From Nitrospiria bacterium (GTDB taxonomy: Bacteria > Nitrospirota > UBA9217): a DNA stretch of 39,668 nucleotides. Of this stretch, positions 17,165-39,668 are shown piece after piece. Position 1 is the stretch's first letter. Each line of letters starts with the position of its first letter. The stretch lies in the NCBI GenBank assembly GCA_919902495.1, contig CAKKRC010000074.1, positions 1-39,668 on the forward strand, given 5' to 3'. The translations under genes and the position numbers were made by a program. The notes under the pieces are model-generated. The model was given only the letters and a program-made list of their open reading frames with translations, ran no database searches and had not been told where the DNA came from.

Positions 17165-18094
17165 ATGCCGAAGATAGTAACCGCATTCCTGCTCGCCCTG
17201 CTCGTTGCTGCGCTTTCCGGCTGCAGTCGAACGGACCAGGAGCGGGCTCACGGTCAGAAACCTACAGATCTTTCCCAGCCACGACACTCCCTTCGCATCG
17301 GCCTGATCCCCGAGCAGAACATCTTTAACCAGATGGAGCGGTACGAGCCGCTGGCACAGTATCTTTCCAAAAAACTTGGTGTGGATATCCAATTCACTAT
17401 TCTATTGCGATACGGCAACATCATTGATAACTTTGTCGCTGATGGCCTGGATGGGGCGTTCTTCGGCAGTTTCACCTATGCGCTAGCACATGAAAAGATA
17501 AAAGTGCGGGTCGTTGTCCGGCCTGAATATCCCGACGGTCATTCGACCTATTATGGCATGATCATCGTCCGGAAGGACAGCGGGATCCGTACGGTCAAGG
17601 ATATGCGCGGGAAAAGGTTCGTATTCGTTGACAAGGCCACGACGGCCGGCTATCTCCTTCCCTACGCCTACTTCAAAAGCCATGCTATCGATCATCATAC
17701 CTATCTTCGAGAGAGCTATTTCGCCGGAACGCATGAAAATGTTGTCATGGACGTGCTGGACCGGAAGGCTGACATCGGGGCGATAAAGAACACAGTATTC
17801 GCCTTGCTTGCGGCAAAGAATAAACGCATTGCTCAGGAACTGATGATGCTTGAACGATCGCCAGACGTGCCCGAGAACGCACTCGCTTTTCGCAAAGACC
17901 TGGATCCGAAGCTCGTTCAGGACATCAGAACGGCGCTGCTCCGCATGCATGAGGATATCGAGGGCGCAGAGCTGATCAAGGCGTTCGGCGCGAAACGGTT
18001 CATCGAGACCACGGATAATGACTATCTGCCAGTTTACCGGTATGCACGCCAGGCCGGCATCAAACTCTCTTCATACGACTATCTGAACGACTGA
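17165..18094 (+). CDS. PhnD-type phosphate/phosphite/phosphonate-binding-like lipoprotein
   Basis: 309 residues with a lipoprotein signal ending in LLVAALSGCSRT (lipobox LSGC, Cys at about 20). The mature part has the PhnD-like binding-protein signature: LRIGLIPEQNIFNQMERYEPLAQYL at the start of lobe 1, DGAFFGSFTYALAHE, STYYGMIIVRKDSGI, then the hinge and lobe 2 (MRGKRFVFVDKATTAGYLLPYAYF). PhnD-like proteins bind small oxyanions or related ligands for ABC import. Here no permease or ATPase gene is adjacent. The stop overlaps the start of a sensor kinase by one base, so the protein more likely presents ligand to the kinase than feeds a transporter; this is inference from context. The ribosome-binding site is weak (AGGA). 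Confidence 0.85.
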   Translation: MPKIVTAFLLALLVAALSGCSRTDQERAHGQKPTDLSQPRHSLRIGLIPEQNIFNQMERYEPLAQYLSKKLGVDIQFTILLRYGNIIDNFVADGLDGAFFGSFTYALAHEKIKVRVVVRPEYPDGHSTYYGMIIVRKDSGIRTVKDMRGKRFVFVDKATTAGYLLPYAYFKSHAIDHHTYLRESYFAGTHENVVMDVLDRKADIGAIKNTVFALLAAKNKRIAQELMMLERSPDVPENALAFRKDLDPKLVQDIRTALLRMHEDIEGAELIKAFGAKRFIETTDNDYLPVYRYARQAGIKLSSYDYLND

Positions 18095-19551
18095 TGAAAC
18101 GAAAGATCATAATAGGATTGATGATATTTTTTCTCGTGTTCATATCGAGCGGGTTCTATATCATAACGAACATCGAAAAGGTCACCTCTTCGCTCGATGG
18201 ACTCATCCTGCTGCATCAGGTCGAAATTATCCGGGAGCGCCTGCTGGTCGAGCTCAAGCGGACGCAGCTTGACCTCCAGCTCAGAAACACCCAGCATGCG
18301 CGAAGCGGCGACACGATAGTAACTCACGTCAAGGCGCTCAGCGATCTTGTCAATGTATGTTTTGAATGCCACCACACGGCGCAGGTAACGGCCAGGCTTG
18401 ATTCCCTGCAGACGAGCATCGATGCATACAAGAACGCATTAAGCAGGGTGTTCACCATGCGCGCGAACAAGCAACGGCTTGTCAGCGAGCAGGAAAACGC
18501 ATTCGAGATCAGCTCGGAAATCGTCGCTGAGGTCATCAATATCAACGACCTGACGACGAAAAAGCTGCGGTCAAGCACGACTGCGGCGCTCGACGATACC
18601 AGAAATATGAAGGTCTTCTTATATACCATTCTGATCACCGCTCCTGTCTCTGCGCTCGTTCTGTCCCTCCTGTTCCTGCGCTGGTTCACGAGGCCTGTGT
18701 CGGTCCTCGTACACGCGATCCGACAGCTCCGGTCCGGGGATCTTTCTTATCGTATCGACGGACTTCACGATGAGTATATCGAGGTCGCTGACTCGTTCAA
18801 CACGATGGCAGTCTCCCTGAAGGAGCACTATGACCGGATGCAGTGGGCCGAGCAGGTTGTTATCCTGGGAGAACTTGCCGGCGGCCTTGCACACGAGATC
18901 AAGAACCCTCTCGCCGGCGTCAAGGCTTCCATGGAGATTCTTTCCACGGATCCGGCCGTTTCCGAGGAGAACAAGGACGTGCTCACGAAGGCAGCCGAAC
19001 AGGTCAAACGCATGGAAGCGCTCATAAAGAGCTTCATGAACTTTGCCCGTCCCCCGGCACCGCAGCTCGCTGACACCAATATTCATGCGGTCCTGGAATC
19101 CACCCTGGCACTGGCACAGCGGCACCCCCTTTTCGGAAAGAGCCGGGTGGGCAGGATAACGGTTGTCAAGAACTTTGACGACCAGTTGCCGAGCATACTC
19201 GCTGATCCCGCACAGATGCAACAGGTGTTCCTGAACCTGCTTCTGAACGCTGCCGATGAAATGCCCGATGGCGGCACGATCACGATCACGACCCAGTTCG
19301 AATCTGAGATGGAATGCCTGACGATACGGATCAGGGATACAGGAAAGGGGGTTGACGACGGCCTCCGGGAGAAGATCTTTCAACCGTTCTTTACGACAAA
19401 AGCAAAAGGGACCGGCTTGGGCCTGTCCATATCAAAGCGGCTCGTCGAGCAGCAGGGGGGCGGCATTCGGATCGAAAACCACAATGGCAATGGTGTTTCA
19501 TTCATCATAGCCTTCCCGCTATTTACTCGAACGGAGGTTCCGGTCCCATGA
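18094..19551 (+). CDS. sensor histidine kinase with periplasmic CxxCH haem motif, HAMP, HisKA and HATPase
   Basis: 485 residues. TM1 spans about 6-25 and TM2 about 173-197. The periplasmic helical domain between them contains NVCFECHHT (Cys89, Cys92, His93), a c-type haem attachment motif. HAMP follows at about 197-250 (RPVSVLVHAIRQLRSGDLSY), then HisKA with His267 in GLAHEIKNPLAGVKASMEI, an N-box (FLNLLLNAADEMPDGG), G1 (DTGKGVDDG), F-box (IFQPFFTTK) and G2 (GTGLGLSISK). It is a complete NtrB-like kinase. A covalently bound haem would make it a candidate redox, NO or CO sensor. The gene overlaps the upstream binding-protein gene by one base and the downstream regulator by four, so the three are translationally coupled. 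Confidence 0.92.
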   Translation: MKRKIIIGLMIFFLVFISSGFYIITNIEKVTSSLDGLILLHQVEIIRERLLVELKRTQLDLQLRNTQHARSGDTIVTHVKALSDLVNVCFECHHTAQVTARLDSLQTSIDAYKNALSRVFTMRANKQRLVSEQENAFEISSEIVAEVININDLTTKKLRSSTTAALDDTRNMKVFLYTILITAPVSALVLSLLFLRWFTRPVSVLVHAIRQLRSGDLSYRIDGLHDEYIEVADSFNTMAVSLKEHYDRMQWAEQVVILGELAGGLAHEIKNPLAGVKASMEILSTDPAVSEENKDVLTKAAEQVKRMEALIKSFMNFARPPAPQLADTNIHAVLESTLALAQRHPLFGKSRVGRITVVKNFDDQLPSILADPAQMQQVFLNLLLNAADEMPDGGTITITTQFESEMECLTIRIRDTGKGVDDGLREKIFQPFFTTKAKGTGLGLSISKRLVEQQGGGIRIENHNGNGVSFIIAFPLFTRTEVPVP

Positions 19552-20939
19552 GAGTCCTGCCAAGGATACTGATCGTTGACGACGATGAGCTCATTGTCAC
19601 GACGATCACGCGATCGCTCCAGAGGGAAGGATATGATGTTCGTTCTGAGAATAGTGCCCTGCGGGTGGTGGAGGCGATCAGAAGCTGGTCTCCCTGCGTT
19701 GTACTCCTGGATATCCGACTTCCGGAACGCAGCGGCATCGAGGTCCTCGAAGATATCGTGCGTAACGAGCTGCGCACGCAGGTCATCATGCTTACGGCAG
19801 ACGATACTGCGGAGACTGCAGTGAAGGCCATGAAGCTAGGTGCGGCGGATTACATGACAAAACCGTTCAACCTCGATGAGATCATCATCGTCGTGCGAAA
19901 CCACGTCGCCAAGGAAAACCTGAGCCGAGAGGTCGATTACCTTCGCAAGGTCGCCGGGGAGCGGTTCGATCGTCAGATGATCGGCAAATCCGACGCACTT
20001 ACTGAATTGAGGGCGGAGCTGGATAAGATCGCCAGGGCCCACGTGTCGAGCGTCTTGATCACGGGAGAAAGCGGAACCGGCAAGGAACTGGTCGCCCGCT
20101 ACCTGCACCAGGTCATGTTCGGTGAAGCGTCATCGCGTACCGTACCGTTCATCGGGGTGAACTGCGCTGCGTTGCCGGAGAACCTGCTCGAAAGCGAGCT
20201 GTTCGGCCATGAGCGTGGAGCGTTCACTGATGCAAAGTCCGACAAAAAAGGCGTGTTCGAGCTGGCAAACGGGGGTGTGATCCTGCTGGACGAGATCGGG
20301 GAGATGGACCCGAGACTGCAGGCCAAGCTGCTGCGGGTCCTTGAAGAGCGCGTCGTCCACAGGGTCGGCGGTCGCGAGGATATTCCCGTCGATGTGACGG
20401 TCATTGCCACAACAAACAAGAACCTGGCAAAAGCGGGTTCTCGCGGTGAATTCCGCACCGACTTGTTTTTCCGTCTTAGTAATTTTTATGTGCATGTTCC
20501 TCCGCTGCGTGAGCGGCGGGTTGACATCCCCATACTGGCTGACTACTTTCTCTCGTTATTTGCAACCAGGTACAATAATAAGTTCATGAAGCGATTTTCC
20601 CCGGATGCCCTGCACATCCTGTCCGAATACGATTGGCCGGGCAATATCCGCGAACTGAGAAATGTTGTGGAGCGATTTGTCGTACTGGAGAGCGAGGAGG
20701 AGATCGTTCCTTCGATGCTTCCGGAATGGATGCTGAGGCAGAAAGTGGCTGCGGGCGGTTCGGGATATAACGGTGAGTTCACGCTTCCTGAGAAAGGGGT
20801 GTCGATCGACGATCTTGAACGAAACCTTCTCCAGCAGGCCCTTGAGCGGACCAACCACAACAAGGCGCAGGCTGCAAAGCTCCTTCATCTTAGCTACGAC
20901 ACGCTGCGCTACCAGGTCAAGAAGCATGGGCTGGAATAA
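19548..20939 (+). CDS. sigma54-dependent NtrC-family response regulator
   Basis: 463 residues. The receiver (1-120) has DDD at 11-13, phospho-acceptor Asp55 and Lys in TKPF. The AAA+ domain (about 143-380) has Walker A GESGTGKE (173-180), Walker B GVILLDEIGE (243-252) and the sigma54-contact loop as ERGAFTDA instead of GAFTGA, a variant I know from other members of the family. The Fis-type helix-turn-helix lies at the end (NKAQAAKLLHLSYDTLRYQV). It activates RNA polymerase holding sigma54 from upstream enhancers when phosphorylated, presumably by the haem-motif kinase whose stop it overlaps. Two sigma54-type promoters follow in the window, at 21920 and 27331, and are natural candidate targets. 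Confidence 0.95.
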   Translation: MRVLPRILIVDDDELIVTTITRSLQREGYDVRSENSALRVVEAIRSWSPCVVLLDIRLPERSGIEVLEDIVRNELRTQVIMLTADDTAETAVKAMKLGAADYMTKPFNLDEIIIVVRNHVAKENLSREVDYLRKVAGERFDRQMIGKSDALTELRAELDKIARAHVSSVLITGESGTGKELVARYLHQVMFGEASSRTVPFIGVNCAALPENLLESELFGHERGAFTDAKSDKKGVFELANGGVILLDEIGEMDPRLQAKLLRVLEERVVHRVGGREDIPVDVTVIATTNKNLAKAGSRGEFRTDLFFRLSNFYVHVPPLRERRVDIPILADYFLSLFATRYNNKFMKRFSPDALHILSEYDWPGNIRELRNVVERFVVLESEEEIVPSMLPEWMLRQKVAAGGSGYNGEFTLPEKGVSIDDLERNLLQQALERTNHNKAQAAKLLHLSYDTLRYQVKKHGLE

Positions 20940-27407: not shown

Positions 27408-28367
27408 ATGCCGCACCTACCGCATCATGACAAGCTTTCCGGCATCTGCATCGCCATGGTCGTCCTCCTGACGATGATGACGATCACTGCTGAGGCCGGA
27501 ACGGTGAGCGCATCCTATCTCTATTCACTGTCCGATCATGCCGGTGACATCCTCTACGAAGGCGGAAAGATATTCGTCGACCCTGAGATGAATGAAGCAT
27601 ACGTGATCAGCAACAACACGGTCACGGTGTTCAACCGCACGGGCCTGGAGGTCTACCGCTTCGGCGAGAACAACAATCTCGGGATCATCGCGGACCTTGC
27701 GCTCATGCAGAACGGGAACATCCTGCTGCTCTCCTACAGCAGGGATTACCGGAACTATCAGGTCCTGCTCTGCAACTACCGGGGAGAGCCTACCAGGGCC
27801 ATCGAGATATCCGGTGTACCGGCCGGCCTCGGCGACTTCCGGCCGGGTCATATCGCATATTACCAGGGCAGGATATATCTCGTCGACCAGGTACGGCTGC
27901 TTGCGGTCATTGCCGACGAGCACGGTCAGATAGAACGGCACTATGATATATTCCGGATCCTGAACGTGAAGAAAAAGGACCGGGTGAACGCGCAAATGGA
28001 CGGTTTCAGCCTGGACAGGGATGGCAGCATGCTCTTCACCCTTCCGGTCATGTTCACCGCCTGCCGTTTGTCCCTTGACGAGAAAATGGACTGCTTTGGC
28101 CAACCCGGCGGTGCCAAGGGTAGATTTAATGTAATATCGGACATCATTACGGACAACCGCGGCAATTACCTGGTCGCAGACAAATTGAAAAGCGTCGTCA
28201 ATATTTACGACAAGGAGTTTACGTTCCTGGAGGCCTTCGGATATCGCGGAGCCGGCCCCGGGAACCTGACGGTCCCTCTCAGGCTCGGCATCGACAGCCG
28301 TGACAGGGTCTATGTGGTCCAATCCGGCAGGAGAGGGATCAGCGTTTTCAGTCTGCACTATAACTGA
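27408..28367 (+). CDS. secreted NHL/beta-propeller-type protein
   Basis: 319 residues; GGGAG lies upstream of the ATG. The signal peptide covers about residues 10-31 (ICIAMVVLLTMMTITAEAG). The mature part is a series of about six beta-blades of NHL type: GGKIFVDPEMNEAYVISNNTV, LMQNGNILLLSYSRDYRNY, ISDIITDNRGNYLVADKLKS and LRLGIDSRDRVYVVQSGRRGIS. Propellers of this kind are binding platforms. It is the first gene behind the sigma54-type promoter and directly precedes two OmcS-like cytochrome genes. From memory, an NHL-repeat gene also accompanies omcS in Geobacter. A role in cytochrome-filament assembly or as a filament partner is inference from this position. Confidence 0.85.
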   Translation: MPHLPHHDKLSGICIAMVVLLTMMTITAEAGTVSASYLYSLSDHAGDILYEGGKIFVDPEMNEAYVISNNTVTVFNRTGLEVYRFGENNNLGIIADLALMQNGNILLLSYSRDYRNYQVLLCNYRGEPTRAIEISGVPAGLGDFRPGHIAYYQGRIYLVDQVRLLAVIADEHGQIERHYDIFRILNVKKKDRVNAQMDGFSLDRDGSMLFTLPVMFTACRLSLDEKMDCFGQPGGAKGRFNVISDIITDNRGNYLVADKLKSVVNIYDKEFTFLEAFGYRGAGPGNLTVPLRLGIDSRDRVYVVQSGRRGISVFSLHYN

Positions 28368-28487: not shown

Positions 28488-28571
28488 ATCCTCCGAACGG
28501 GTAAACCCACCGTAAGGTGGGGACACAAAGTCACGGATCCTGACAACAGGACCGCCGGACTGCCGGAGCAT
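28488..28571 (+). promoter_or_regulatory. GEMM-I (c-di-GMP class I) riboswitch upstream of the OmcS-like gene
   Basis: All GEMM-I hallmarks are present in order. The P1 5' strand CTCCG (28491-28495) pairs with CGGAG (28564-28568). GGGTAAACC (28499-28507) corresponds to GGGCAAACC. A CCACC-GTAA-GGTGG hairpin has a GNRA tetraloop (28507-28520). GGACACAAAGTC (28521-28532) corresponds to GGACGCAAAGCC. A second stem (TCCTG/CAGGA, about 28538-28551) follows, then CGCCGGACTGCCGG (28554-28566). The middle G of GGG, which contacts ligand in the known c-di-GMP structure, is G here, whereas the Geobacter 3',3'-cGAMP variants carry A; this favours c-di-GMP. P1 closes only about 11 bases before the GGAGG of the next gene, so translational control is likely. 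Confidence 0.85.
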
Positions 28572-28587
28572 TCTCAATGGAGGAACT

Positions 28588-29838
28588 ATGAGATTCGCAA
28601 AAACGAGCATCATTATCATGGCTGCCATCGCCGTCGTGTTCGGCCTGGGCAGCGTAAGCTATGCATTCCATGAAGGCGGCGTCGGCAGATGCGAAGGCTG
28701 CCACGATATGCACAACTCGAAGTCGACCGGCATGCTGCTCAAGGGGACCGACACCAGTTCGACCTGTTTGAGCTGCCATGCGGCCGCGGACACCGCTCCG
28801 AACGGCTATCACGTCATGACCTATCCGGTTCCCGGCGCCGGTATTCCGCCCGCGAATATGGGCCCCGGCGGCGACTTCGCCTGGCTCGGCAAGACCTACA
28901 CCTGGATCGGCCGCTCGGGCAAGACCTCGACCGAGAAGGGCGATTCACATGGGCATAACATCATCGCGGCGGACTATGGAATGGTGACCGATGCGACGAA
29001 CTCGGGCACGGCACCGGGCGGCACGTTCCCGTCAAGCCAGTTCGCCTGCATCAGCTGCCATGACCAGCATGGCACGGCCCGCAGACTGAACGACGGCACC
29101 TATTCCCGCGACGGCGGACCGATCATCGCGTCCGGGTCCTATGCCTCGTCGCCCATCCCGCCGGTCGGAGAGGCCGTCGGCACCTACCGCCTGCTGCGCG
29201 GCTCCATGAACGACAGGAATCCCGGGAACACCAACTATGCAACGCCGGCACTGGCATTCGCGCCGGATTCCTACAATCGTTCTGAATCCTATACCCAGAC
29301 CCGCGTCGCCTTTGGCGACAGGATGTCCGATTTCTGCGGCGCCTGCCACACGAACCATCATACGACGAACGTGAAGTACCACCCGCAAGGCGTGTCGATC
29401 CGTTCGACCGTTGCAGGCAACTATAATGCGTACATCGCATCAGGCAACATGGGCGGCAGCTCCGCTTCCTCCTACCTGTCGCTTGTTCCGTTCGAGGAAG
29501 GCGCAACGACCGACATCGCGACCCTTCAGACGCATGCAGTGAGCGACAACAGCGTGCTGGCCGGTCCAGACGCCGCTTCGCAAGTGATGTGCCTCTCCTG
29601 TCATCGCGGCCATGCGAGCGCTTTCCCGGCGATGGCGCGGTGGAACAATGAGAGCGAACTGATCACGTTCGAGCATTCCTATGCCGGCACCGACGCACCG
29701 AATGCCGAAGCCTCGAACGCGAACTTTGCACGCGGCAGACTGGTAGCGGAAATGGCCGCCGGCTATTACAACAAACCGGCGACGGATTTCGCCACGTTCC
29801 AGCGGTCCCTGTGCAACAAGTGTCATGCGAAGGACTAA
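28588..29838 (+). CDS. OmcS-like hexaheme c-type cytochrome (putative extracellular filament subunit)
   Basis: 416 residues, GGAGG site upstream. The signal peptide is cleaved near VSYAFHEGG (about 26). Six CxxCH motifs occur: CEGCH (35), CLSCH (60), CISCH (154), CGACH (250), CLSCH (335) and CNKCH (409). Length, haem count and many phrases match Geobacter OmcS as I recall it: FHxGGV at the mature N-terminus, GGDFAWLGKTYTW, GHNIIAADY, YNRSESYTQTRVAFG, YLSLVPFEEG and the C-terminal LCNKCHAKD. OmcS polymerises into micrometre-long haem-stacked filaments that carry electrons to minerals or partners. Distal His ligands are plentiful (FHEGG, MHNS, GHN). It sits behind a GEMM-I riboswitch and ahead of a paralogue. 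Filament formation is inferred from homology. Confidence 0.93.
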   Translation: MRFAKTSIIIMAAIAVVFGLGSVSYAFHEGGVGRCEGCHDMHNSKSTGMLLKGTDTSSTCLSCHAAADTAPNGYHVMTYPVPGAGIPPANMGPGGDFAWLGKTYTWIGRSGKTSTEKGDSHGHNIIAADYGMVTDATNSGTAPGGTFPSSQFACISCHDQHGTARRLNDGTYSRDGGPIIASGSYASSPIPPVGEAVGTYRLLRGSMNDRNPGNTNYATPALAFAPDSYNRSESYTQTRVAFGDRMSDFCGACHTNHHTTNVKYHPQGVSIRSTVAGNYNAYIASGNMGGSSASSYLSLVPFEEGATTDIATLQTHAVSDNSVLAGPDAASQVMCLSCHRGHASAFPAMARWNNESELITFEHSYAGTDAPNAEASNANFARGRLVAEMAAGYYNKPATDFATFQRSLCNKCHAKD

Positions 29839-29981: not shown

Positions 29982-31262
29982 ATGGTCCCATCGAGAACAA
30001 TACTCCTGATGGTCATGACACTTATGGCGATCCTGATCAACACGGAGAAGACGGTATCCGCATTTCACTCCGGCGGTGTCGGCCCCTGCGACGCATGCCA
30101 CGTGATGCACGGGACGAGCGGATCCGGCAGCGCACTGCTGCGGGGCTCCGACCCGAGCTCAACCTGTCTTCATTGCCATGAACGGCCCGGCAGTATCGGT
30201 CCGTCAGGCCATCATATAAGCACCCCTGCATCCGATATGCAGCAAGGCATGCCGCCCCGGCAGCTGACACCGGGCGGTGATTTCGGCTGGCTGCGCAAGA
30301 TATATATCTGGGTCCCCGATGTGTCACAGGCGCCGGCAACCAGTTACGGCGACCAGCATGGGCACAATATCGTGGCAGCCGATTATTCCTATTTGCCCGA
30401 TGCGCTGCATGCCGCTGCACCGCGTGGCACCTACCCGTCGGCAAGCCTTACGTGCATCAGCTGCCATGATCCGCACGGCAGATACCGGCGGAACATCGAT
30501 GGAACGACGATGACGAATGGAAATCCGATAGGCAGTTCGGGGTCCTACGTGTCCAGCGCTGACCCGCAGTCAATCACGTCCGTAGGCGTCTATCGCCTGC
30601 TGGGTGGGAAGAACTATCAGCCCCGCTCCGTAGCAGGCAATCTCGCCTTCCTGAACGATCCGCCGGTCGCGGTGGCGCCGGATGAGTACAACCGGTCAGA
30701 GGCTGCGAGCCAGACCCGCGTGGCATACGGTACTGGAATGTCGGAGTGGTGCCAGAATTGCCATCCCGGCATGCATCCGGTCGCCGGCTCGGGTGCGCCC
30801 CGGACACACCCTGTCGGCATCACGGGCAGGATCGGCTCGGCCGTTGCGAATGCCTACAATAGTTATGTGCGAACCGGCGATCTCACCGGTTCCGCAGCCA
30901 CGTCCTTCCTGTCCCTGGTCCCCTTTGAGGAAGGCGTGAGCGACATTGCCAGCCTGAAGGCACATGCCGGCACGGACGGGTCCTTTGCCGCCGGGCCCGA
31001 TCCGGTCAGTTCCCAGGTCATGTGCCTCACCTGCCACCGGGCACATGCATCGGGTTGGAATGAAGCATTGCGCTGGAACACGAGGACCGAGTACATCGTC
31101 TACAACGGCCTGTATTCACAGGAAGCACAGGCGTACCAGCCTTACGGGCAGGGGCGTACCGAACTGGAGGCGCAGAAGGCCTATTACGACATCCCGTCAG
31201 GGACCTTTGCCGTCAACCAGGATTCGCTTTGTCATAAATGCCATACCGGAGCACTCCCATGA
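29982..31262 (+). CDS. second OmcS-like hexaheme c-type cytochrome
   Basis: 426 residues from ATG 29982, which puts a signal peptide at the N-terminus (RTILLMVMTLMAILINT, cleavage near VSAFHSGG). The ribosome-binding site is poor. A longer open frame reaches into the preceding gene and is rejected. Six CxxCH motifs occur: CDACH, CLHCH, CISCH, CQNCH, CLTCH and CHKCH. It is a paralogue of the upstream cytochrome (shared GGDFGWLRKIYIW, GHNIVAADY, YNRSEAASQTRVAYG, YLSLVPFEEG). In parts it is closer to OmcS itself as I recall it, for example SCHDPHGRYRR and TPGGDFGW. The weaker start and the hairpin upstream suggest lower expression. The arrangement parallels omcS/omcT in Geobacter. Confidence 0.92.
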   Translation: MVPSRTILLMVMTLMAILINTEKTVSAFHSGGVGPCDACHVMHGTSGSGSALLRGSDPSSTCLHCHERPGSIGPSGHHISTPASDMQQGMPPRQLTPGGDFGWLRKIYIWVPDVSQAPATSYGDQHGHNIVAADYSYLPDALHAAAPRGTYPSASLTCISCHDPHGRYRRNIDGTTMTNGNPIGSSGSYVSSADPQSITSVGVYRLLGGKNYQPRSVAGNLAFLNDPPVAVAPDEYNRSEAASQTRVAYGTGMSEWCQNCHPGMHPVAGSGAPRTHPVGITGRIGSAVANAYNSYVRTGDLTGSAATSFLSLVPFEEGVSDIASLKAHAGTDGSFAAGPDPVSSQVMCLTCHRAHASGWNEALRWNTRTEYIVYNGLYSQEAQAYQPYGQGRTELEAQKAYYDIPSGTFAVNQDSLCHKCHTGALP

Positions 31263-32671
31263 CGCGATCTGCCATCATCATGACCGGTGTGTTGCTCGCG
31301 CTGTTCTTTGCCGGGGGCTGTCAGTCGATGCCCGTGCAGCAGAGACCTTTTGCCGAAGATGGAGCGGAGGTCCTCGTCTACATGGAGCCCTTTACGCAGG
31401 AGGCCGGACGGATCAGTTTCCGCCTCGCGGGGATAGCGGCGGTCCGGGAGGACGGCGCCGAGTTCCCCCTGGTGCTGAAGTTTGCCGATCTTGCACGGCG
31501 CGATGTGATGCGGCAGCGCTTGCTGGCGCACGGCAGGGTGCCCGCCGGACGATACACCGGGTTTTTGTTCCGGATCGCGAGCGCATCGCTCACCACGGAG
31601 GACGGGAATGCAGCTCTTCTGGCGCCCGATGCGCCGGTGAAGCGGGACCATCTGTTCCGGATCGGACGAAAACGGCCGGCCATCGTGTCCCTGACGCTGC
31701 GGCCGGAAGGGTCTGTCCTGAACGGATATCAGTTCAGTCCCGCTCTGCTCATCACAACGCCGTCACGGCCGCTGCTCGATCTCATCGGGTACGTGTCCGT
31801 GGAGTCCGAAAATGCCATTCTCGTGCTCGACAAACTGAGGAAAAGCATCACGGGTATCATCGAGACCGGGAATGCACCACGGGGCATGGCGATCGACCGG
31901 GTCCGCAACCGGGTCTATGCGGCGCTGTCGGGCGACGACGCCGTCGAGGTGATCGACAGTATAGAAAACCGCAGCCTGGCGCGGGTCAGGCTGTTGCCCG
32001 GCGACCGGCCGCAGCAAGTGGAGCTTGCCTCGGAAGGGCAGGTCCTGCTGGCAGTGAACACCGGTTCGGACACGGTCAGCTTCATTGAAGCCAACGCACT
32101 GACCGAGATCAAGCGCGTCACCGTCGGAAAGCGGCCGCGGTCAATGGTGATCGACCGGTCCGGCAGGAGGGCGTATGTGTTCAACACGCTTTCCAACAGC
32201 ATATCGGTCGTAGATATTGCCAACCGGGCGGTCATCGGCACCATCGCCACCGGACCCGAGCCGGTCTGGGGCCAGTTCAATCGGCAGGGCGACCAGCTGT
32301 ACGTGGTGCATGCTGACCATCCGTATCTTCACGTGGTCGACCCGGCATCGTTCACGCTGCTGCGGCGGGAGTTCGTCGGACCGGGCATGCGATCGCTCAA
32401 GGTTGACACGCGCAATGATCTGTTATACCTGGGGCGGAAGAACGATACGGCGCTGGAGGTACGAGATCCGATGACCTTCAACGTTGTGGAATACATCCCG
32501 GCGAAGGGAGAAACGGTCTATCAGGCCATCGACGATGAGCATAACGACCTCTGGCTGGTCATTGCGGAAAAGGACCTGCTGATGACGGTGAACCTGATCA
32601 ATACGGCGGAGACCGCACTCATCGATATTCCCGGACGTCCTGCCTGGGTCACGCTGTCAGGGGAGCGCTAG
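31259..32671 (+). CDS. lipoprotein with YVTN-type beta-propeller
   Basis: 470 residues from ATG 31259, overlapping the cytochrome stop (ATGA), with GGAG eight bases upstream. The lipoprotein signal ends in LFFAGGCQSM (Cys at about 19). Residues about 35-175 form a beta-rich domain of the DUF4382-like kind (ISFRLAGIAAVREDG, GRVPAGRYTGFLFRIASASL). From about 185 on there are YVTN-like blades: NAPRGMAIDRVRNRVYAAL, DTVSFIEANALTEIKRVTVG, RPRSMVIDRSGRRAYVFNT, NSISVVDIANRAVIGTIATG and others, about six. It is probably anchored to the outer membrane. Translational coupling to the second cytochrome ties it to the filament locus; an accessory or docking role is inference. Confidence 0.85.
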   Translation: MTRSAIIMTGVLLALFFAGGCQSMPVQQRPFAEDGAEVLVYMEPFTQEAGRISFRLAGIAAVREDGAEFPLVLKFADLARRDVMRQRLLAHGRVPAGRYTGFLFRIASASLTTEDGNAALLAPDAPVKRDHLFRIGRKRPAIVSLTLRPEGSVLNGYQFSPALLITTPSRPLLDLIGYVSVESENAILVLDKLRKSITGIIETGNAPRGMAIDRVRNRVYAALSGDDAVEVIDSIENRSLARVRLLPGDRPQQVELASEGQVLLAVNTGSDTVSFIEANALTEIKRVTVGKRPRSMVIDRSGRRAYVFNTLSNSISVVDIANRAVIGTIATGPEPVWGQFNRQGDQLYVVHADHPYLHVVDPASFTLLRREFVGPGMRSLKVDTRNDLLYLGRKNDTALEVRDPMTFNVVEYIPAKGETVYQAIDDEHNDLWLVIAEKDLLMTVNLINTAETALIDIPGRPAWVTLSGER

Positions 32672-32672
32672 G

Positions 32673-34919
32673 ATGGGGAAGGACCTGCGCTCATCATGGT
32701 CCATGGGCCTGGGGATGCGGCCGCATGCGCTGCTTCTGGGGCTTTTTTTTTTCCTGGCGCCGAAAGTCGCCTGCGCGGACGGAATAGGAGGATCCATGAT
32801 CCAGTCGTACGCACATATCACATCCTCGTCCAAAAACAGCTCCGGCAACGAGTCCACCATTGAGTCCCGGTCGTTGATGCAGCTCTACTCGCTGGGGTTC
32901 GAGAAGGAACTATTTCCGCATCTCCGACTTTCTGCGGGCGGAACGTTCCAGAAGGACACGTCGGACGCCTTTGTGCAGAATGTGAGGACGAGCAGCGACA
33001 GTTCTGTGAGCAGGCCCCGCGCCGATCTTACGCTCACCATGACGAACCTGACGATGGGGGCGGGCGCCTACCGCCTGATCAACCACATTGAAAGTTCGGC
33101 CGCGCCGGAGCAGACTGCGCTGACGGACATCTCCACCGGCTATCTCAGCTGGAAACCGTATGATCTGCCTACGCTCGATCTCGGCTTTACAAAGACCCAT
33201 TCCTATGACAAGGAACACGCAAGCCAGGACTCGGTCGTCGAGCAGATCTCCTGGGCATCGCGCTATGAGCCGCATCGGACCGTTCAACTCCAGTATCAGG
33301 GCGGAACGCAGGACGCAGAGGACCGGATCCAGGACGCCGGCACCAAAACCACGACGAACAGCGGCAGGGTGAGCTACGGAGACCGCTACTTCAACGACCG
33401 TGTCCTGTTCTCGTCGTATTACAATGTGAACGAGAGCTCGACGGAGGTTATTGCCGGGGGCGCCGGGGTGATCGACTTCCCGGTCCTTGCGTTCGACGGA
33501 CTCTATGCGAGCAGCAGCACTCCCAATATTGTCCAGCTGCAGTCGACAGCGCACCTGATCAATAACGCCGTCAACGATGCGAACGACAGCGCCATCAACA
33601 TCGGATCAGGACCGTTCACGTCCCCGCCGCCGCAGGACACGCAGCCGCGTAACATCGGCCTCAGGTTCAGCATCGCTACGGAGCTGAATCGCCTGCTGGT
33701 ATGGGTCTACTCCGGGAACAGGACGCTCACACCGTCGGTGGCAGGGTCTTTCGCCTGGGGCGTTTATATCAGCGCGGATAACCAGAACTGGACGCTGCAT
33801 CAGACGGTCGCGGCGGCGCCCTATGCAGCCTATCCTGCGGTTCCCGGCGCAGGCCGGTTCGAGATCACCTTTCCAGCCGTCAAGTCCCTGTATATCAAGG
33901 TAGTCGTCAATCCGCTGAATCCGGCAGGCGAAGGGCTTCTGTTCCCCGTTATCGCGGTGACCGAGCTGCAGGCGTTCAGCCAGCGGCCGGCCTCGCAGGC
34001 AGCAGGAACGACACGGCTCACAAGCCAGATGTTCTCGGCCTTTACCAAGGTGAGACTGCTGAACGATCCCTTCCTCTTCTACGATGCATCGGTCACGACG
34101 ACATCGTCGGATGCAGGCGATATGTCCGCGCGGACCGTCCTGATCACGAACGGGTTGTCGGCATCGCACCGCTTCGACCGGGTATACAGCGGTACGGCGC
34201 GGATCGCACTGACCGGGGACTCGCGGCCCGACTGGCGGTCAACGGAGTATCATGCAACGGTATCTCTCCAGGCCGTTCCCCTGCCATCGCTCAAACATAG
34301 CGTGGCCTACAGCGGCGGCATCAGTGATACGCGCACCGGCAGATCGAAGAACCAGTCCCTCTATCTTGCCAATACGGCGGGGCTCTACGAGCGGGTGTCG
34401 ATCTATGCGAATGGAGGGGGGGCCCGAAGCGTTTCCGAACTGGACCAGGTCACCACGAGCACAACGCTCAGCCTCGGCGCCGGCATCAGCCCCGCGAAGA
34501 CCCTGTCCCTCAACGCCAGTTCGTTCCACCAGCGAAGCGAGCAGTCCGGGGGGGCACAGGGACGTTCGACACAAAAGCTCATGCGCAACGATGCGGGGCT
34601 TTCGTATGCGCCGTTCAGCTCGCTGCACCTCAACGCCTTCATCAGCAGGATATCCCAGAACCAGGTACATGACACGCTCCAGAACTATGGAGGCACCTGG
34701 TCCCCCCTCAGCGGAGGATCGCTGCAGCTCGGCATCCTCTATTCGGAGAGCCTGCGTGCCATGGACAATTCGGTAACAAAGATGCTGCGGCCAAGCATTC
34801 GCTGGGATATCTTTCGTTTTGCCGCACTCGATGGCTCCTTCACCCGGATCACCGCCGTCTCCAATGCCGGGCAGACGGAAACCCGGGAGATATCCTTGAC
34901 CATGACGGTCATTCTGTAG
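32673..34919 (+). CDS. outer-membrane beta-barrel-like protein with inserted discoidin-like domain
   Basis: 748 residues; GGGGAG lies before ATG 32673, one base after the upstream stop. The signal peptide runs LLLGLFFFLAPKVACA (cleavage near 36). The rest alternates polar and hydrophobic residues in long strands with tight turns, as in barrels: LMQLYSLGFEKELFPHLRLS, YLSWKPYDLPTLDLGFTKT, LTSQMFSAFTKVRLL and ending in ISLTMTVIL. A soluble domain of discoidin / F5-8 type C pattern interrupts it at about 325-435 (GLRFSIATELNRLLVWVYSG, YISADNQNWTLHQTV, FPAVKSLYIKVVV). No CxxCH is present. Because it sits in a cytochrome-filament operon it is a candidate outer-membrane conduit or anchor, as porins are in porin-cytochrome complexes. 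It resembles no named porin that I recognise. Confidence 0.75.
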   Translation: MGKDLRSSWSMGLGMRPHALLLGLFFFLAPKVACADGIGGSMIQSYAHITSSSKNSSGNESTIESRSLMQLYSLGFEKELFPHLRLSAGGTFQKDTSDAFVQNVRTSSDSSVSRPRADLTLTMTNLTMGAGAYRLINHIESSAAPEQTALTDISTGYLSWKPYDLPTLDLGFTKTHSYDKEHASQDSVVEQISWASRYEPHRTVQLQYQGGTQDAEDRIQDAGTKTTTNSGRVSYGDRYFNDRVLFSSYYNVNESSTEVIAGGAGVIDFPVLAFDGLYASSSTPNIVQLQSTAHLINNAVNDANDSAINIGSGPFTSPPPQDTQPRNIGLRFSIATELNRLLVWVYSGNRTLTPSVAGSFAWGVYISADNQNWTLHQTVAAAPYAAYPAVPGAGRFEITFPAVKSLYIKVVVNPLNPAGEGLLFPVIAVTELQAFSQRPASQAAGTTRLTSQMFSAFTKVRLLNDPFLFYDASVTTTSSDAGDMSARTVLITNGLSASHRFDRVYSGTARIALTGDSRPDWRSTEYHATVSLQAVPLPSLKHSVAYSGGISDTRTGRSKNQSLYLANTAGLYERVSIYANGGGARSVSELDQVTTSTTLSLGAGISPAKTLSLNASSFHQRSEQSGGAQGRSTQKLMRNDAGLSYAPFSSLHLNAFISRISQNQVHDTLQNYGGTWSPLSGGSLQLGILYSESLRAMDNSVTKMLRPSIRWDIFRFAALDGSFTRITAVSNAGQTETREISLTMTVIL

Positions 34920-34932
34920 GTCCGAGGTGGGT

Positions 34933-35502
34933 ATGGAACTGCTCAGACACATCATCCTGCTGGCGATGGTCCTCTTGCTCGGAGCCTGCTCCGGGAGATC
35001 GTCGAACGCGTTCCGGGACCAGAACATGGATTTCGGCGTCATTCAGAATGTGGCGGTCATGCCCATGGCGAACCATACACGCGAACAGAGCGCCGGGGAC
35101 CGGGTCCGGGACGTGCTGTTCAATAAACTGCTTTATACCGGCGGGCTGTATGCGGTCCCCCTTGGCGAGGTGAAGCGAGGCACGATGCGGGCCGCGACCG
35201 CCGATGCGACCGCGCCGTCGCCGGAAGAGGTCGTCAAACTTGCAGGCATCCTGAAGGTGGATGCGATCATCACCGGCGCGGTCAAGGAATACGGGGAGGT
35301 GCGATCGGGCAATGCCGTAGCGAACGTCATATCCGTCAGCGTCCAGATGCTCGAGACCCAGACGGGAAGGATCATCTGGTCCGCATCATCGACCAAGGGA
35401 GGCGTGGGGTTCAGCGACCGCCTGCTTGGCGGCGGCGGTGATCCCATGAACGTCATCACAGAAAAGGCCATAGATGAGATCCTCGACAAACTATTCATAT
35501 AA
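34933..35502 (+). CDS. CsgG/LpoB-like lipoprotein
   Basis: 189 residues from ATG 34933. A GTG at 34927 is an alternative start; neither has ideal spacing to GAGG. The lipoprotein signal ends in MVLLLGACSG (lipobox LGAC). The mature domain follows the pattern shared by CsgG, LpoB and GNA1162-like proteins: NVAVMPMANHT at the first strand, a helix, VDAIITGAVKEYGE, then ISVSVQMLETQTGRIIWSAS and a last helix (NVITEKAIDEILDKL). CsgG forms the outer-membrane pore for curli export and LpoB activates peptidoglycan synthesis; the present sequence does not decide between such roles. It overlaps the next gene by 29 bases, and that gene carries the same domain at both ends. Confidence 0.8.
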   Translation: MELLRHIILLAMVLLLGACSGRSSNAFRDQNMDFGVIQNVAVMPMANHTREQSAGDRVRDVLFNKLLYTGGLYAVPLGEVKRGTMRAATADATAPSPEEVVKLAGILKVDAIITGAVKEYGEVRSGNAVANVISVSVQMLETQTGRIIWSASSTKGGVGFSDRLLGGGGDPMNVITEKAIDEILDKLFI

Positions 35503-38500
35503 AGCGGGTCGCATCCAGCGTGCCTGGCTGCTTGGTATCGTCCTGTGCGCGGGCATCGCCGATACGTCCGCCGCCGCGGAGACCGCAACGTTGCGCGTTG
35601 CCGTGCTGCCGGTGGGGAACCAGAGCGGGAAGACCGTGCCGGTCAATGATCTCCGCGAAATGCTGATCAGGGGGCTGGAAGAACAGGGTGCTGCGGTCCT
35701 CGCTGATGCTGAGAACGAGCAGTTCCTGGCGAGGCACCGCGTCCGGTTTACCGGCGGACTGGATCGGGCGACCGCTGAGGCATACCGGACGGAGACCGGC
35801 GTCGATGCCGTGCTCATCTCGTCGGTGGACCTCTACGGCGAGCATGATCCACCGCGCATAGCGCTGTTCGTGCGGCTCGTTTCAACAGCGAGTGAACCGA
35901 AGATCCTCTGGTTCGACAGCGTCGGGCTGACGGGAAAGGATGCTCCGGGCCTGCTCGGTCTGAACAGGATCAATGATCCGAAGAAACTGCTGGAAAAGAT
36001 CCAACTCCTGTTGTTCGGATCATACGCGGAATATCATCATGGCAGGAAATCGGTCCCTGCGGTGCGTACCACGTTCGAGCCGAGAGCGGCCTTCCGCTCA
36101 TCCGTGATCGGATCGGACCTGCGGGAAAACTATGTGGAATTCGTGGAGAGCAGATCGAGCGGCGAGGAGACCGTAAAATATGCACGCATCGCCGTGTCCC
36201 TGAGCCGTCCCAGCGGAAGAACGGCGAGTGTGGAATATCTGATGAGCGGCGGGTCCGCCGTGGAAGGCAGGGACTTTATCTGCAAGGACACAAGGCTCAC
36301 CTTCAAGGCCGGTGAAACGCTCAAATACATTGACATACGGATCATGCGCGATAAAGCGAACACGGAACAGAAGACCATCACGCTGGTCCTGAAAGCTCCG
36401 AAGAACGCGCTCCTGGGGGAGACCAGGGTGCACACCTATTCGATCATCGACGTGGACCCCGAGCCCGCGGTGTCGTTCACCACGAAGCACCAGAAGGTGA
36501 AGGAGACCGCGGGGCGTGCGGTGATCACGGCAGAGCTGTCCGCACTGTCAGGCAAGGACGTGACCGTGCCGTTCCTGGTGAGCGGGACGGCGAAGATGCC
36601 GGGGAACTACTTCATTACGCCGAGCCCGGTGGTGATCAAGGCCGGGACAAAGAGCGCGGAGATCGTGCTCCAGGTCGCGGACAACGGGGTGGACGAGGAC
36701 GACCGGACCGTGGTGGTCACCCTGGGTCTTCCGGTGAACGCGGTGCAGGGGCGGACCGCGACGAGCACGGTGACGATCAGGGATGTGGACCCGGAGCCGT
36801 CAGTATCGTTCGTACAGGAGGGGTCCCGCATCGACGGGCAGCGGGGCACCGCCCGTCTGGAGGTTGCGCTCGGCGCAGCGAGCGGGAAGCCGGTGACCGT
36901 GGAGTACGAGGTCACGGGCGGCACGGCGGAACCGGGGAAGGACTATGCCTTGCGGGGAGGCAGCCTGGTCTTCGCGCCGGGCGAGACAACGAAGGCCATC
37001 GAGATCGACATCCGGGGCGCAGCGGTGCACGACGACGACAGGAACGTTGAGGTCTCCCTGTCCCGCTCCGAGAACGCCGGGCTGGGCGGCGTGAGAAAGC
37101 ATTCCTGCACCCTGGTGAACCCCATACCCGCTCCGGCAATCTCGTTCCTCACGCGGCGGACCCGCGGGGACGAGCGGACCGGCACAGCACGGTTGGAGGT
37201 CGGGCTCTCCGCTGCGAGCGGAAAGCCCGTTACCGTGGGCTATGCAATTGCCGGCGGAAGCGCGGTACAGGGGAAGGACTATACGGTGCACGGGGATGCG
37301 TTGACCTTTGCGCCGGGAGAGACAGGGAAGGTCGTTGAACTGACGATACGCACGTTCGGGGTCTATGACGACGATAAAACGGTCGATATTGAGCTTAAAG
37401 GCCCCCGCTCAGCGACACTCGGGGAGGTGCCGCTTCATACCTACACGATCGTGATCAGCGGATCATCTTTGCAGGCAGAGGATGAGAATGCAGGAGACGG
37501 GGCAGGAATGACGGCGATGAACGCCCAACAGCCCGGTCCTGCCGCTGCGCAGGAATATACTACGCCGCGAAAGGGGGCCGGGATCCCGATCATCCCCATG
37601 CCCGCCGTGGCGTTCACGAGCAGGGAGACCCGCGGCGATGAGCGAACCGGCACTGCCCGTCTCGCGGTCGGCCTTTCAGCGGCGAGCGCCAAACCGGTGA
37701 CGGTGGCGTACGCAGTGTCCGGGGGGACGGCAGTAGCCGGAACGCACTATGATCTGCAGGACGATACCCTGGTGTTCGCTCCCGGCGAAACGCACAAGCA
37801 CATCGAGGTCCGTATCAAAGGTGACGGGAAGAACACGGAACAGAAGACCATCACGCTGGTCCTGAAAGCTCCGAAGAACGCGCTCCTGGGGGAGACCAGG
37901 GTGCACACCTATTCGATCATCGACGTGGACCCCGAGCCCGCGGTGTCGTTCACCACGAAGCACCAGAAGGTGAAGGAGACCGCGGGGCGTGCGGTGATCA
38001 CGGCAGAGCTGTCCGCACTGTCAGGCAAGGACGTGACCGTGCCGTTCCTGGTGAGCGGGACGGCGAAGATGCCGGGGAACTACTTCATTACGCCGAGCCC
38101 GGTGGTGATCAAGGCCGGGACAAAGAGCGCGGAGATCGTGCTCCAGGTCGCGGACAACGGGGTGGACGAGGACGACCGGACCGTGGTGGTCACCCTGGGT
38201 CTTCCGGTGAACGCGGTGCAGGGGCGGACCGCGACGAGCACGGTGACGATCAGGGATGTGGACCCGGAGCCGTCAGTATCGTTCGTACAGGAGGGGTCCC
38301 GCATCGACGGGCAGCGGGGCACCGCCCGTCTGGAGGTTGCGCTCGGCGCAGCGAGCGGGAAGCCGGTGACCGTGGAGTACGAGGTCACGGGCGGCACGGC
38401 GGAACCGGGGAAGGACTATGCCTTGCGGGGAGGCAGCCTGGTCTTCGCGCCGGGCGAGACAACGAAGGCCATCGAGATCGACATCCGGGGCGCAGCGGTG

Positions 38501-39400
38501 CACGACGACGACAGGAACGTTGAGGTCTCCCTGTCCCGCTCCGAGAACGCCGGGCTGGGCGGCGTGAGAAAGCATTCCTGCACCCTGGTGAACCCCATAC
38601 CCGCTCCGGCAATCTCGTTCCTGGCGCAGTCACTGCATTTTCGCAAAAATGCCGGAGTTGCGAAGATAGCTGTGGAGCTGTCGGCGACGTCGCGAAAGGC
38701 AGTGACCGTACCGTACGCGGTGGGCAGAGCCGGACAGCATGCACAGGGGGCGCCCGTCATGCACGGATCGCTCGTGATCAAACCGGGCCGGCTGAGCGCC
38801 ATGATCGACGTTGAACTGTCGGAAATATCCCCGGAGGCCGGAGAGGAAGTCCTGGAGATCGTTCTGAGCGGTCCGGAGAATGCCTCGCTCGGCCGCATCC
38901 CGGTGCACCGGATGACCGTCATCAGCAGGGAACACAGACCGAGGATCGCCGTCATTCCGTTCATGAACGTGAGCGGAAGAAAGGATGCCGGAGACCTCCT
39001 GATGCTTCAGTTCGTGAAGGAATTGTCGTCGCTGGACGATATCACCGTCATGGAGCCGGGCGTCGTGCGGGACCATCTGCTCGGCATGCGCGTCATCATG
39101 TACGAAGGCGTATCGCTCTCCGACATCGACCTGCTCATGAAAACACTGGATGTGGACCTGATCCTTACCGGAAGGGTCTTCGATTATCAGGACTATGAAG
39201 CGCCGGGGACGACGCCGAAAGTGGAATTCTCGGTGCTGCTGTTCGAACGGACGAGGAACCGCGTGATCTGGGCGTCAAAGAGCTATAACAAGGGGAATGA
39301 CGGCGTCGTGCTGTTCGACTGGGGGAACATCTCCACGGCCAATACAATGGTGACCGAAATGGCACGGGCAGTGAAGAGCAAACTGGTCACATGGGAGTGA
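35474..39400 (+). CDS. 1308-residue exported Calx-beta protein with CsgG/LpoB-like domains at both ends
   Basis: Signal peptide at about 16-35 (WLLGIVLCAGIADTSAAAE). The N-terminal domain (about 36-190) begins LRVAVLPVGNQSGK and contains VDAVLISSVDLYGE. Eight Calx-beta units of about 110 residues follow (about 215-1150), each with a strand such as VSFTTKHQKV, a 'GTAxxGxDY' segment, a 'FxPGET' turn and a DDD/DED calcium-type cluster. A Gln/Ala-rich linker lies between units 4 and 5. The C-terminal domain (about 1155-1308) repeats the first fold: RIAVIPFMNVSGRK, VDLILTGRVFDYQDYE and NRVIWASKS. Units 1 (end) to 4 (start) and 5 (end) to 8 (start) are encoded by a perfect 792-bp direct repeat. Probably a surface or periplasmic calcium-binding adhesive scaffold; function is inferred. 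Confidence 0.85.
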   Translation: MRSSTNYSYKAGRIQRAWLLGIVLCAGIADTSAAAETATLRVAVLPVGNQSGKTVPVNDLREMLIRGLEEQGAAVLADAENEQFLARHRVRFTGGLDRATAEAYRTETGVDAVLISSVDLYGEHDPPRIALFVRLVSTASEPKILWFDSVGLTGKDAPGLLGLNRINDPKKLLEKIQLLLFGSYAEYHHGRKSVPAVRTTFEPRAAFRSSVIGSDLRENYVEFVESRSSGEETVKYARIAVSLSRPSGRTASVEYLMSGGSAVEGRDFICKDTRLTFKAGETLKYIDIRIMRDKANTEQKTITLVLKAPKNALLGETRVHTYSIIDVDPEPAVSFTTKHQKVKETAGRAVITAELSALSGKDVTVPFLVSGTAKMPGNYFITPSPVVIKAGTKSAEIVLQVADNGVDEDDRTVVVTLGLPVNAVQGRTATSTVTIRDVDPEPSVSFVQEGSRIDGQRGTARLEVALGAASGKPVTVEYEVTGGTAEPGKDYALRGGSLVFAPGETTKAIEIDIRGAAVHDDDRNVEVSLSRSENAGLGGVRKHSCTLVNPIPAPAISFLTRRTRGDERTGTARLEVGLSAASGKPVTVGYAIAGGSAVQGKDYTVHGDALTFAPGETGKVVELTIRTFGVYDDDKTVDIELKGPRSATLGEVPLHTYTIVISGSSLQAEDENAGDGAGMTAMNAQQPGPAAAQEYTTPRKGAGIPIIPMPAVAFTSRETRGDERTGTARLAVGLSAASAKPVTVAYAVSGGTAVAGTHYDLQDDTLVFAPGETHKHIEVRIKGDGKNTEQKTITLVLKAPKNALLGETRVHTYSIIDVDPEPAVSFTTKHQKVKETAGRAVITAELSALSGKDVTVPFLVSGTAKMPGNYFITPSPVVIKAGTKSAEIVLQVADNGVDEDDRTVVVTLGLPVNAVQGRTATSTVTIRDVDPEPSVSFVQEGSRIDGQRGTARLEVALGAASGKPVTVEYEVTGGTAEPGKDYALRGGSLVFAPGETTKAIEIDIRGAAVHDDDRNVEVSLSRSENAGLGGVRKHSCTLVNPIPAPAISFLAQSLHFRKNAGVAKIAVELSATSRKAVTVPYAVGRAGQHAQGAPVMHGSLVIKPGRLSAMIDVELSEISPEAGEEVLEIVLSGPENASLGRIPVHRMTVISREHRPRIAVIPFMNVSGRKDAGDLLMLQFVKELSSLDDITVMEPGVVRDHLLGMRVIMYEGVSLSDIDLLMKTLDVDLILTGRVFDYQDYEAPGTTPKVEFSVLLFERTRNRVIWASKSYNKGNDGVVLFDWGNISTANTMVTEMARAVKSKLVTWE
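36358..37149 (+). repeat. 792-bp direct repeat, copy 1 (within Calx-beta gene)
   Basis: Identical by eye to 37831-38622. The offset is 1473 bases (491 codons), so both copies are in the same frame. It covers the end of Calx-beta unit 1, units 2 and 3, and the first residues of unit 4. Identity at every base, synonymous sites included, points to recent duplication or gene conversion. Confidence 0.92.
37831..38622 (+). repeat. 792-bp direct repeat, copy 2 (within Calx-beta gene)
   Basis: Second copy of 36358-37149. It begins in unit 5 at GAACACGGAACAG and ends in unit 8 at CTCGTTCCT, after which the sequences diverge. Recombination between copies would remove 1473 bp in frame, or duplicate it. 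Confidence 0.92.
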
Positions 39401-39417: not shown

Positions 39418-39668
39418 ATGGAACATTTAATGCCATACGGCGAGGGGGCGGCCATGCAAAGAAGATCGTGGAAGTGCGGTGGTATGCTGTTCAGTCTGAT
39501 GTTTTCAGGGATGGTGTTCTCGATCAACGGAGCCGGTACCGCGGATGCGACGATGCAGGGAACCGGCAGCGCGGCTGTGTCTCCGAATGTGGTTGTCGTA
39601 CGGGTGCTCGATCCGGCCGGCCGGGAGCCGGTCACGGTGCCGCTGATATCGTCGGGCGACGGGGACCG
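39418..39668 (+). CDS. start of an exported protein, truncated by the window end
   Basis: ATG 39418 is preceded by GGGAGA at seven bases; a second start at 39454 has GAGGGGG five bases before it and gives a shorter n-region. The frame is open to the edge (83 codons). The hydrophobic signal segment is MLFSLMFSGMVFSI, with likely cleavage near GTADA. The mature start reads VVVVRVLDPAGREPVTVPL, an extended beta-type sequence not enough to assign. It lies 17 bases after the Calx-beta gene and probably belongs to the same operon. Confidence 0.6.
   Translation, partial: MEHLMPYGEGAAMQRRSWKCGGMLFSLMFSGMVFSINGAGTADATMQGTGSAAVSPNVVVVRVLDPAGREPVTVPLISSGDGD

Follow-up and report, generated by a model that had tools for sequence, protein, structure and literature searches.

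Calx-beta units between the two PelC-like domains of an OscG homologue in an OmcS-type cytochrome locus of a Nitrospiria bacterium

Results

An OmcS-type cytochrome locus at the end of the window

The window (the whole 39,668-nt stretch analysed, contig CAKKRC010000074.1 of the Nitrospiria bacterium assembly GCA_919902495.1) ends in a run of forward-strand genes (Table 1). The cluster opens with an NHL-type beta-propeller gene, followed by two hexaheme cytochromes, a second propeller protein, a 748-aa protein, a lipoprotein and a 1308-aa protein containing Calx-beta units. The initial annotation had suggested that the two latter genes might serve a filament locus, and both upstream cytochromes are indeed OmcS homologues. 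For the second of these the start is inferred, the open frame running from 29811. Directly upstream of the first one lies a c-di-GMP-I-GGC riboswitch aptamer, a position that suggests cyclic-dinucleotide control of the nanowire operon. The 748-aa protein has no match in Pfam or NCBIfam, TPR families included; its sequence pattern and its position point to a putative outer-membrane barrel. Elsewhere in the window, a 2267-aa open frame (736–7539) shows phosphodiesterase-type and transglutaminase-core matches, and a phosphonate-type binding protein, a histidine kinase and a sigma-54 response regulator are encoded in a row (17165–20939), upstream of TPR genes and of the cytochrome locus.

The last gene is cut by the contig end, and its start codon is inferred. 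The terminal 33 nt of the window (39636–39668) overlap, with one mismatch, the end of another contig of the same genome (C30), which beyond the overlap encodes the rest of the protein and then a 26-heme and a 16-heme cytochrome. The locus is thus complete in this genome. Comparisons of the window fragment with relatives gave low scores (51 against one relative, with a shuffled maximum of 47, and 26 against another), so that its identity as OscH was settled only by the contig overlap. The assignment of this protein as a prolyl isomerase is based on Pfam matches in two relatives and on profile homology elsewhere.

Table 1. Positions of the features of the locus in the window
Feature	Position	Strand	Evidence
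NHL-type beta-propeller protein at the start of the cluster	27408..28367	+	Weak propeller Pfam matches; same place in most related loci
c-di-GMP-I-GGC riboswitch aptamer (Rfam RF03167)	28491..28568	+	62.4 bits (gathering threshold 59), E 1.5e-12
OmcS homologue 1, hexaheme cytochrome	28588..29838	+	6 CxxCH; PDB 6ef8 (OmcS), E 8.5e-98
OmcS homologue 2 (OmcT/OscC position)	29982..31262	+	6 CxxCH; PDB 6ef8, E 4.7e-114
OscD homologue, YVTN beta-propeller	31238..32671	+	Pfam/NCBIfam propeller matches; cluster position
OscE homologue, 748 aa, putative outer-membrane barrel	32673..34919	+	Homologue in 50/76 OmcS loci
OscF homologue, PelC/GNA1162-like lipoprotein	34927..35502	+	Pfam; AlphaFold2 model; PelC fold match
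OscG homologue, Calx-beta form, 1308 aa	35474..39400	+	Sequence, profiles
OscG N-terminal PelC/GNA1162-like domain, about aa 40–190	35591..36043	+	hhalign against OscF and against the C-domain
OscG interdomain linker motif FEPRAAFRS, aa 201–209	36074..36100	+	F.P...YRS motif in compact OscG
Eight Calx-beta units, aa 220–1149, type order a b a a a b a b	36131..38920	+	Iterated profile, unit identity table
792-bp direct repeat, copy 1	36358..37149	+	Sequence
792-bp direct repeat, copy 2	37831..38622	+	Sequence
OscG C-terminal PelC-like domain, about aa 1152–1306	38927..39391	+	hhalign against OscF; PDB profile PelC 1e-4
OscH homologue start (PpiC/SurA-type prolyl isomerase), truncated at the contig edge	39454..39668	+	Overlap with contig C30

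The lipoprotein and the Calx-beta protein correspond to OscF and OscG

The gene order of the window and contig C30 (propeller, putative barrel, lipoprotein, tandem protein, isomerase, 26-heme and 16-heme cytochromes) fits the order D-E-F-G-H-I-J of the osc (omcS companion) operon of Geobacter sulfurreducens, which shares with the window the succession from OmcS to the 16-heme gene as well as the presence of two OmcS-type cytochromes. The portion of PMC13194489 available places omcS, omcT and oscC (GSU2501) within that operon, equates oscI with GSU2495 and oscJ with GSU2494 and, citing Shen et al. (2025), proposes a role in folding for OscH, in secretion for OscE, OscF and OscG, and in morphology for OscD. 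GSU2495 has 26 hemes according to the corresponding excerpt of PMC12977616, as has the gene at the OscI position here. From this match of gene order and heme count, the lipoprotein was identified as OscF and the 1308-aa protein as OscG; on this basis we assign their genes, as oscF and oscG, to an osc locus. As no G. sulfurreducens genome turned up in the set searched, the Osc names are based on gene order and heme counts. Judging by the locus numbers of oscC, oscI and oscJ, the G. sulfurreducens OscF and OscG would be GSU2498 and GSU2497. One searched genome encodes an OmcS with 72% identity to the G. sulfurreducens protein (6ef8); it has the full gene set in the same order, and its OscF and OscG match our profiles at 7e-86 and 3e-74. 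In a literature search for GSU2496–GSU2500 no paper was found.

The osc system itself is known, and what is new is the Calx-beta variant of OscG: in contrast to the G. sulfurreducens operon, the OscG of the window carries eight Calx-beta units between its domains and has no clear lipobox. A related arrangement is the OetABI/OmcS cluster of syntrophic sulphate reducers (Murali et al., 2023, PMC10553843), where OmcS-like cytochromes also lie beside a porin and large cytochromes; the text available from that paper does not contain the word CsgG and does not describe proteins of the OscF/OscG type.

Conservation of the osc gene set across OmcS loci

Genome contigs were scanned with an OmcS alignment, and the best 76 of 350 confirmed stretches were taken as loci. 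OscE is encoded in 50 of them, OscF in 48, a complete OscG in 42, OscH in 44, the 26-heme cytochrome in 38 and the 16-heme cytochrome in 32, many absences being due to the ends of contigs or of the available stretches; long open frames in high-GC loci (L081 and L122, for example), partly spurious, were kept in these counts. All 42 loci with a complete OscG have OscF beside it on the same strand, 41 have OscE, and in 26 the OscF and OscG genes overlap by 23–32 nt. The order NHL-OmcS-OscD-OscE-OscF-OscG-OscH-26 heme-16 heme recurs in Nitrospirota, Acidobacteriota, Rokuibacteriota, Myxococcota and Thermodesulfobacteriota, and nearly all OscG proteins are of a compact form devoid of Calx-beta units. 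In 25 of the 76 loci the available stretch contains none of OscE, OscF and OscG; about 11 of these have at least 8 kb downstream, which indicates that some OmcS paralogues are encoded away from the cluster.

Matches to the C-terminal domain of OscG were obtained in 59 genomes, and the neighbourhoods of 20 of them, 16 with strong and 4 with weaker matches, were annotated. Two OscG proteins (L060, 11058–13871, and L092, 15645–19094) have an N-terminal extension of 600–800 aa with beta-sandwich matches of the Ig/PKD/Y_Y_Y type. The four weaker-match loci (L071, L072, L073 and L074), on which the following description rests, represent a further, osc-like type of cluster in Nitrospirota, here termed type-2, with two OscF-like lipoproteins, a tandem OscG that in L071 ends in an OmpA domain, an isomerase-like protein and 26-heme and 16-heme genes. 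The hexaheme-type cytochromes of type-2 clusters are remotely related to OmcS (hhalign, 1.7e-31); a PDB search with such a cytochrome gave no match.

OscF and both ends of OscG are homologous PelC/GNA1162-type domains

The oscF and oscG genes overlap by 29 nt at the place initially indicated. OscF (191 aa) starts at GTG 34927 or at ATG 34933, and its lipobox cysteine is residue 21 (34987). The proposal that these two genes comprise three related domains is borne out far beyond chance by hhalign comparison of deep alignments (45 lipoproteins, 27 N-domains and 26 C-domains): the lipoprotein matches the OscG C-domain at E 1.6e-17 (probability 98.9) and the N-domain at 1.6e-10 (96.9), and the C- and N-domains match each other at 4.1e-10 (96.7), the control against the OmcS profile reaching a probability of 0.7. 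The motif series on which the proposal was based is present in all three domains, in a looser form in the N-terminal OscG copy, which reads VDAVLISSVDLY and ILWFDS and lacks the TG.

With Pfam, neither terminal domain was detected in the window OscG alone, and relatives were therefore needed. At E 0.01, all 45 members of the OscF alignment match the GNA1162-like family (PF05643), 39 match LpoB (PF13036) and 9 match CsgG; the window OscF itself is below the curated GNA1162-like cut-off (22 to 22.4 bits versus 25.9). Among 38 OscG proteins the matches are to CsgG in 8, LpoB in 7 and GNA1162-like in 4. Searching PDB profiles, the OscG C-domain finds PelC (Table 1) and the N-domain gives a weak match to GNA1162 (0.016).

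Structure prediction places PelC first, followed by GNA1162, TolB-N, CsgG and LpoB. The single-chain AlphaFold2 model of the window OscF (pLDDT 91.3; 171 residues) has PelC as its top fold match (Foldseek 1.1e-9; Z 15.5, 2.6 Å, 141 residues); LpoB follows with Z 10.7, and FlgT and the LPHT ring are also resembled. For OscG, the fold results are those of a compact Nitrospirota relative (pLDDT 89.0, pTM 0.89), whose C-domain is closest to PelC (Z 16.7, 2.3 Å, 138 residues) and whose N-domain is closest to GNA1162 (Z 13.1), then TolB and CsgG (Z 12.0). The domains had been described as CsgG/LpoB-like, and both Pfam and the folds support their membership in the CsgG/LpoB/GNA1162/TolB-N superfamily. 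OscG is thus a tandem of two PelC/GNA1162-type domains, and OscF is, according to its model, an outer-membrane lipoprotein with the PelC/GNA1162 fold.

CsgG has its own transmembrane beta-hairpins. Hairpins of this type are absent from the OscF and OscG models; of the OscF model, 133–138 residues align to CsgG chains of 191–257 residues. The curli exporter (PDB 4uv3) shares the core fold (Z about 12) and has a protein fibre as cargo; unlike it, the osc locus has a separate putative barrel gene, and a Pfam scan of window proteins revealed no curli gene neighbours. Among the solved structures, PelC is nearer than CsgG. The suggestion that an envelope assembly serves the filament locus is supported by the OmcS neighbours and by the match to osc, whose OscE, OscF and OscG have been proposed to secrete OmcS, but the nearest relative is the ring lipoprotein PelC and not the pore-forming CsgG. 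The pore is more likely to be the product of the oscE gene than the CsgG-like domains. A literature search for OmcS together with CsgG returned no paper.

According to the accessible part of PMC12141448, PelBC consists of one PelB barrel and a ring of twelve PelC lipoproteins, and Trp-149 of PelC is embedded in the membrane. The osc proteins share with this exopolysaccharide exporter (PDB 5t0z, 5t10 and 9h80) the lipoprotein fold and a putative barrel gene adjoining OscF/OscG. They differ from it in that Trp-149 is not retained (0/45; the column of the Pseudomonas aeruginosa residue holds Ile in 34 and Val in 11 OscF sequences), OscE has no TPR match, a second ring-type protein, built as a tandem, is present, and the cargo would be a cytochrome instead of a polysaccharide.

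A Calx-beta array is inserted between the domains of OscG in one Nitrospirota family

All eight Calx-beta units initially reported between the two terminal domains were recovered with an iterated profile; Pfam Calx-beta (PF03160) covers seven stretches (E 1e-91, 303.5 bits versus a cut-off of 27). Acidic clusters (VDEDD, HDDD, YDDD and DVD), which we take to be a putative calcium-binding motif, are partly retained in some units and absent from others. The array begins just past a linker motif, F.P...[YF]RS, which also separates the two domains of compact OscG. Its units are of two types, and their number varies: eight in the window, five in the related genome G011 (order a b a a b) and at least two to five in two truncated OscG copies.

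Within the array, a 792-bp direct repeat occurs twice with zero differences, so that unit 2 equals unit 6 and unit 3 equals unit 7. Such a repeat points to a duplication of very recent date, to conversion or to an error in the assembly. In the latter case the repeat would have been placed twice, and the true protein, without the second copy, would have four units and 817 aa. We consider this a serious possibility, somewhat short of an even chance: the copies are identical, though other unit pairs of the window are 25–58% identical, and the genome is a 110-contig draft, but the segment between the copies codes in frame for further units and a 50-aa linker, and the G011 protein carries five units.

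Among 14 genomes of one Nitrospirota family (f1), the four that bear OscG (G000, G002, G008 and G011) all have the Calx form, and every other complete OscG protein examined lacks the array; among these loci it is limited to that family. In a tree of OscG C-domains, built after removal of eight loci that repeat named contigs, the four genomes group together (support 91/85; branch not starred), which corresponds to one change and is compatible with a single origin of the insertion. The architecture had initially been regarded as unfamiliar. It is indeed a lineage-specific insertion, but the underlying tandem protein exists in many phyla without Calx-beta units. Nor is the architecture one that occurs widely away from cytochromes, since cluster cytochromes adjoin the Calx-form OscG in all four genomes; in G008 the OmcS end lies past the contig edge. 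No paper was found in a literature search for OmcS with Calx-beta.

The array is probably a stiff spacer or an arm that extends towards the cell surface or into the periplasm. Many bacterial surface proteins contain Calx-beta arrays and, taking into account also that the number of units varies among relatives, the array might instead be an adhesion or matrix-binding element at the surface, which would be compatible with the export model set out below. We regard this as rather unlikely, because the array sits between two PelC-like domains with no free end and no surface anchoring signal was seen.

Discussion

OscE, OscF and OscG are reportedly known as "channel-like OscEFG". On balance, and with moderate confidence, we favour a model in which OscF and OscG assemble, as PelC does, into rings on the periplasmic side of an OscE barrel that exports OmcS, with the Calx arm as a spacer; we infer ring formation by analogy with PelBC, and likewise infer the partnership with the barrel, the direction of export and the role of the arm. 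In this model, the OscH isomerase would act as a chaperone and hand OmcS over to the OscF/OscG ring; OscF, and OscG with it, would ring the periplasmic mouth of OscE as PelC does on PelB; OmcS subunits would exit through OscE and polymerise outside. In this Nitrospirota family, the linker between the OscG domains is filled with the two types of Calx-beta units. Against a machine of the PelBC type count the lack of conservation at Trp-149, the absence of TPR or family matches in OscE and the absence of a good lipobox in the window OscG; the OscG proteins of G011 and G002 do have one.

OscF and OscG could alternatively be a basal anchor that holds the completed filament at the outer membrane and links it to the 26-heme and 16-heme cytochromes, with the Calx array extending the anchor. 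OmpA domains usually bind peptidoglycan. Such a domain at the end of a type-2 OscG (L071), the regular presence of large multiheme cytochromes in the cluster and the fold matches to FlgT and to the LPHT ring would suit an anchor. We nevertheless judge it unlikely, as PelC surpasses FlgT both by sequence and by coverage, and secretion is the role proposed for OscE, OscF and OscG in the text available from PMC13194489. It is very improbable that OscF/OscG act in the manner of LpoB, reaching through the peptidoglycan to activate a synthase and make room for the filament with the Calx arm adding reach: the Pfam LpoB matches in both proteins and the LpoB fold match agree with this, but the fold score is below that of PelC, the PBP-activator context of LpoB is missing from osc, and no peptidoglycan synthase was found among the scanned genes of the window.

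The export model can be extended, tentatively and with more doubt than confidence, to a general one in which nanowires exit via a PelBC-like machine (with one ring of OscF and a double one of OscG on OscE), OscG has been lengthened independently in several lineages and a doubled-OscF version exists elsewhere. The lengthening would consist of Calx-beta units here, of the Ig/PKD-like N-terminus in L060 and L092 and of the OmpA domain in the type-2 cluster, and the arms would set the spacing from the outer-membrane ring to the peptidoglycan or to the cell surface. The doubled-OscF machine of other Nitrospirota would export a distinct family of hexaheme cytochromes.

The accessible part of a 2025 review (PMC12307469) describes the passage of nanowires through the outer membrane as still speculative. 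The PelC/GNA1162 fold predicted for OscF and for both halves of OscG suggests how the gene set, which occurs here in five phyla or more, could work: a single barrel bearing rings of lipoproteins, a concrete model that can be tested. The Calx form, in turn, marks a site at which OscG accommodates insertions of hundreds of residues, and this site may be useful for tagging the protein or altering its length in laboratory Geobacter.
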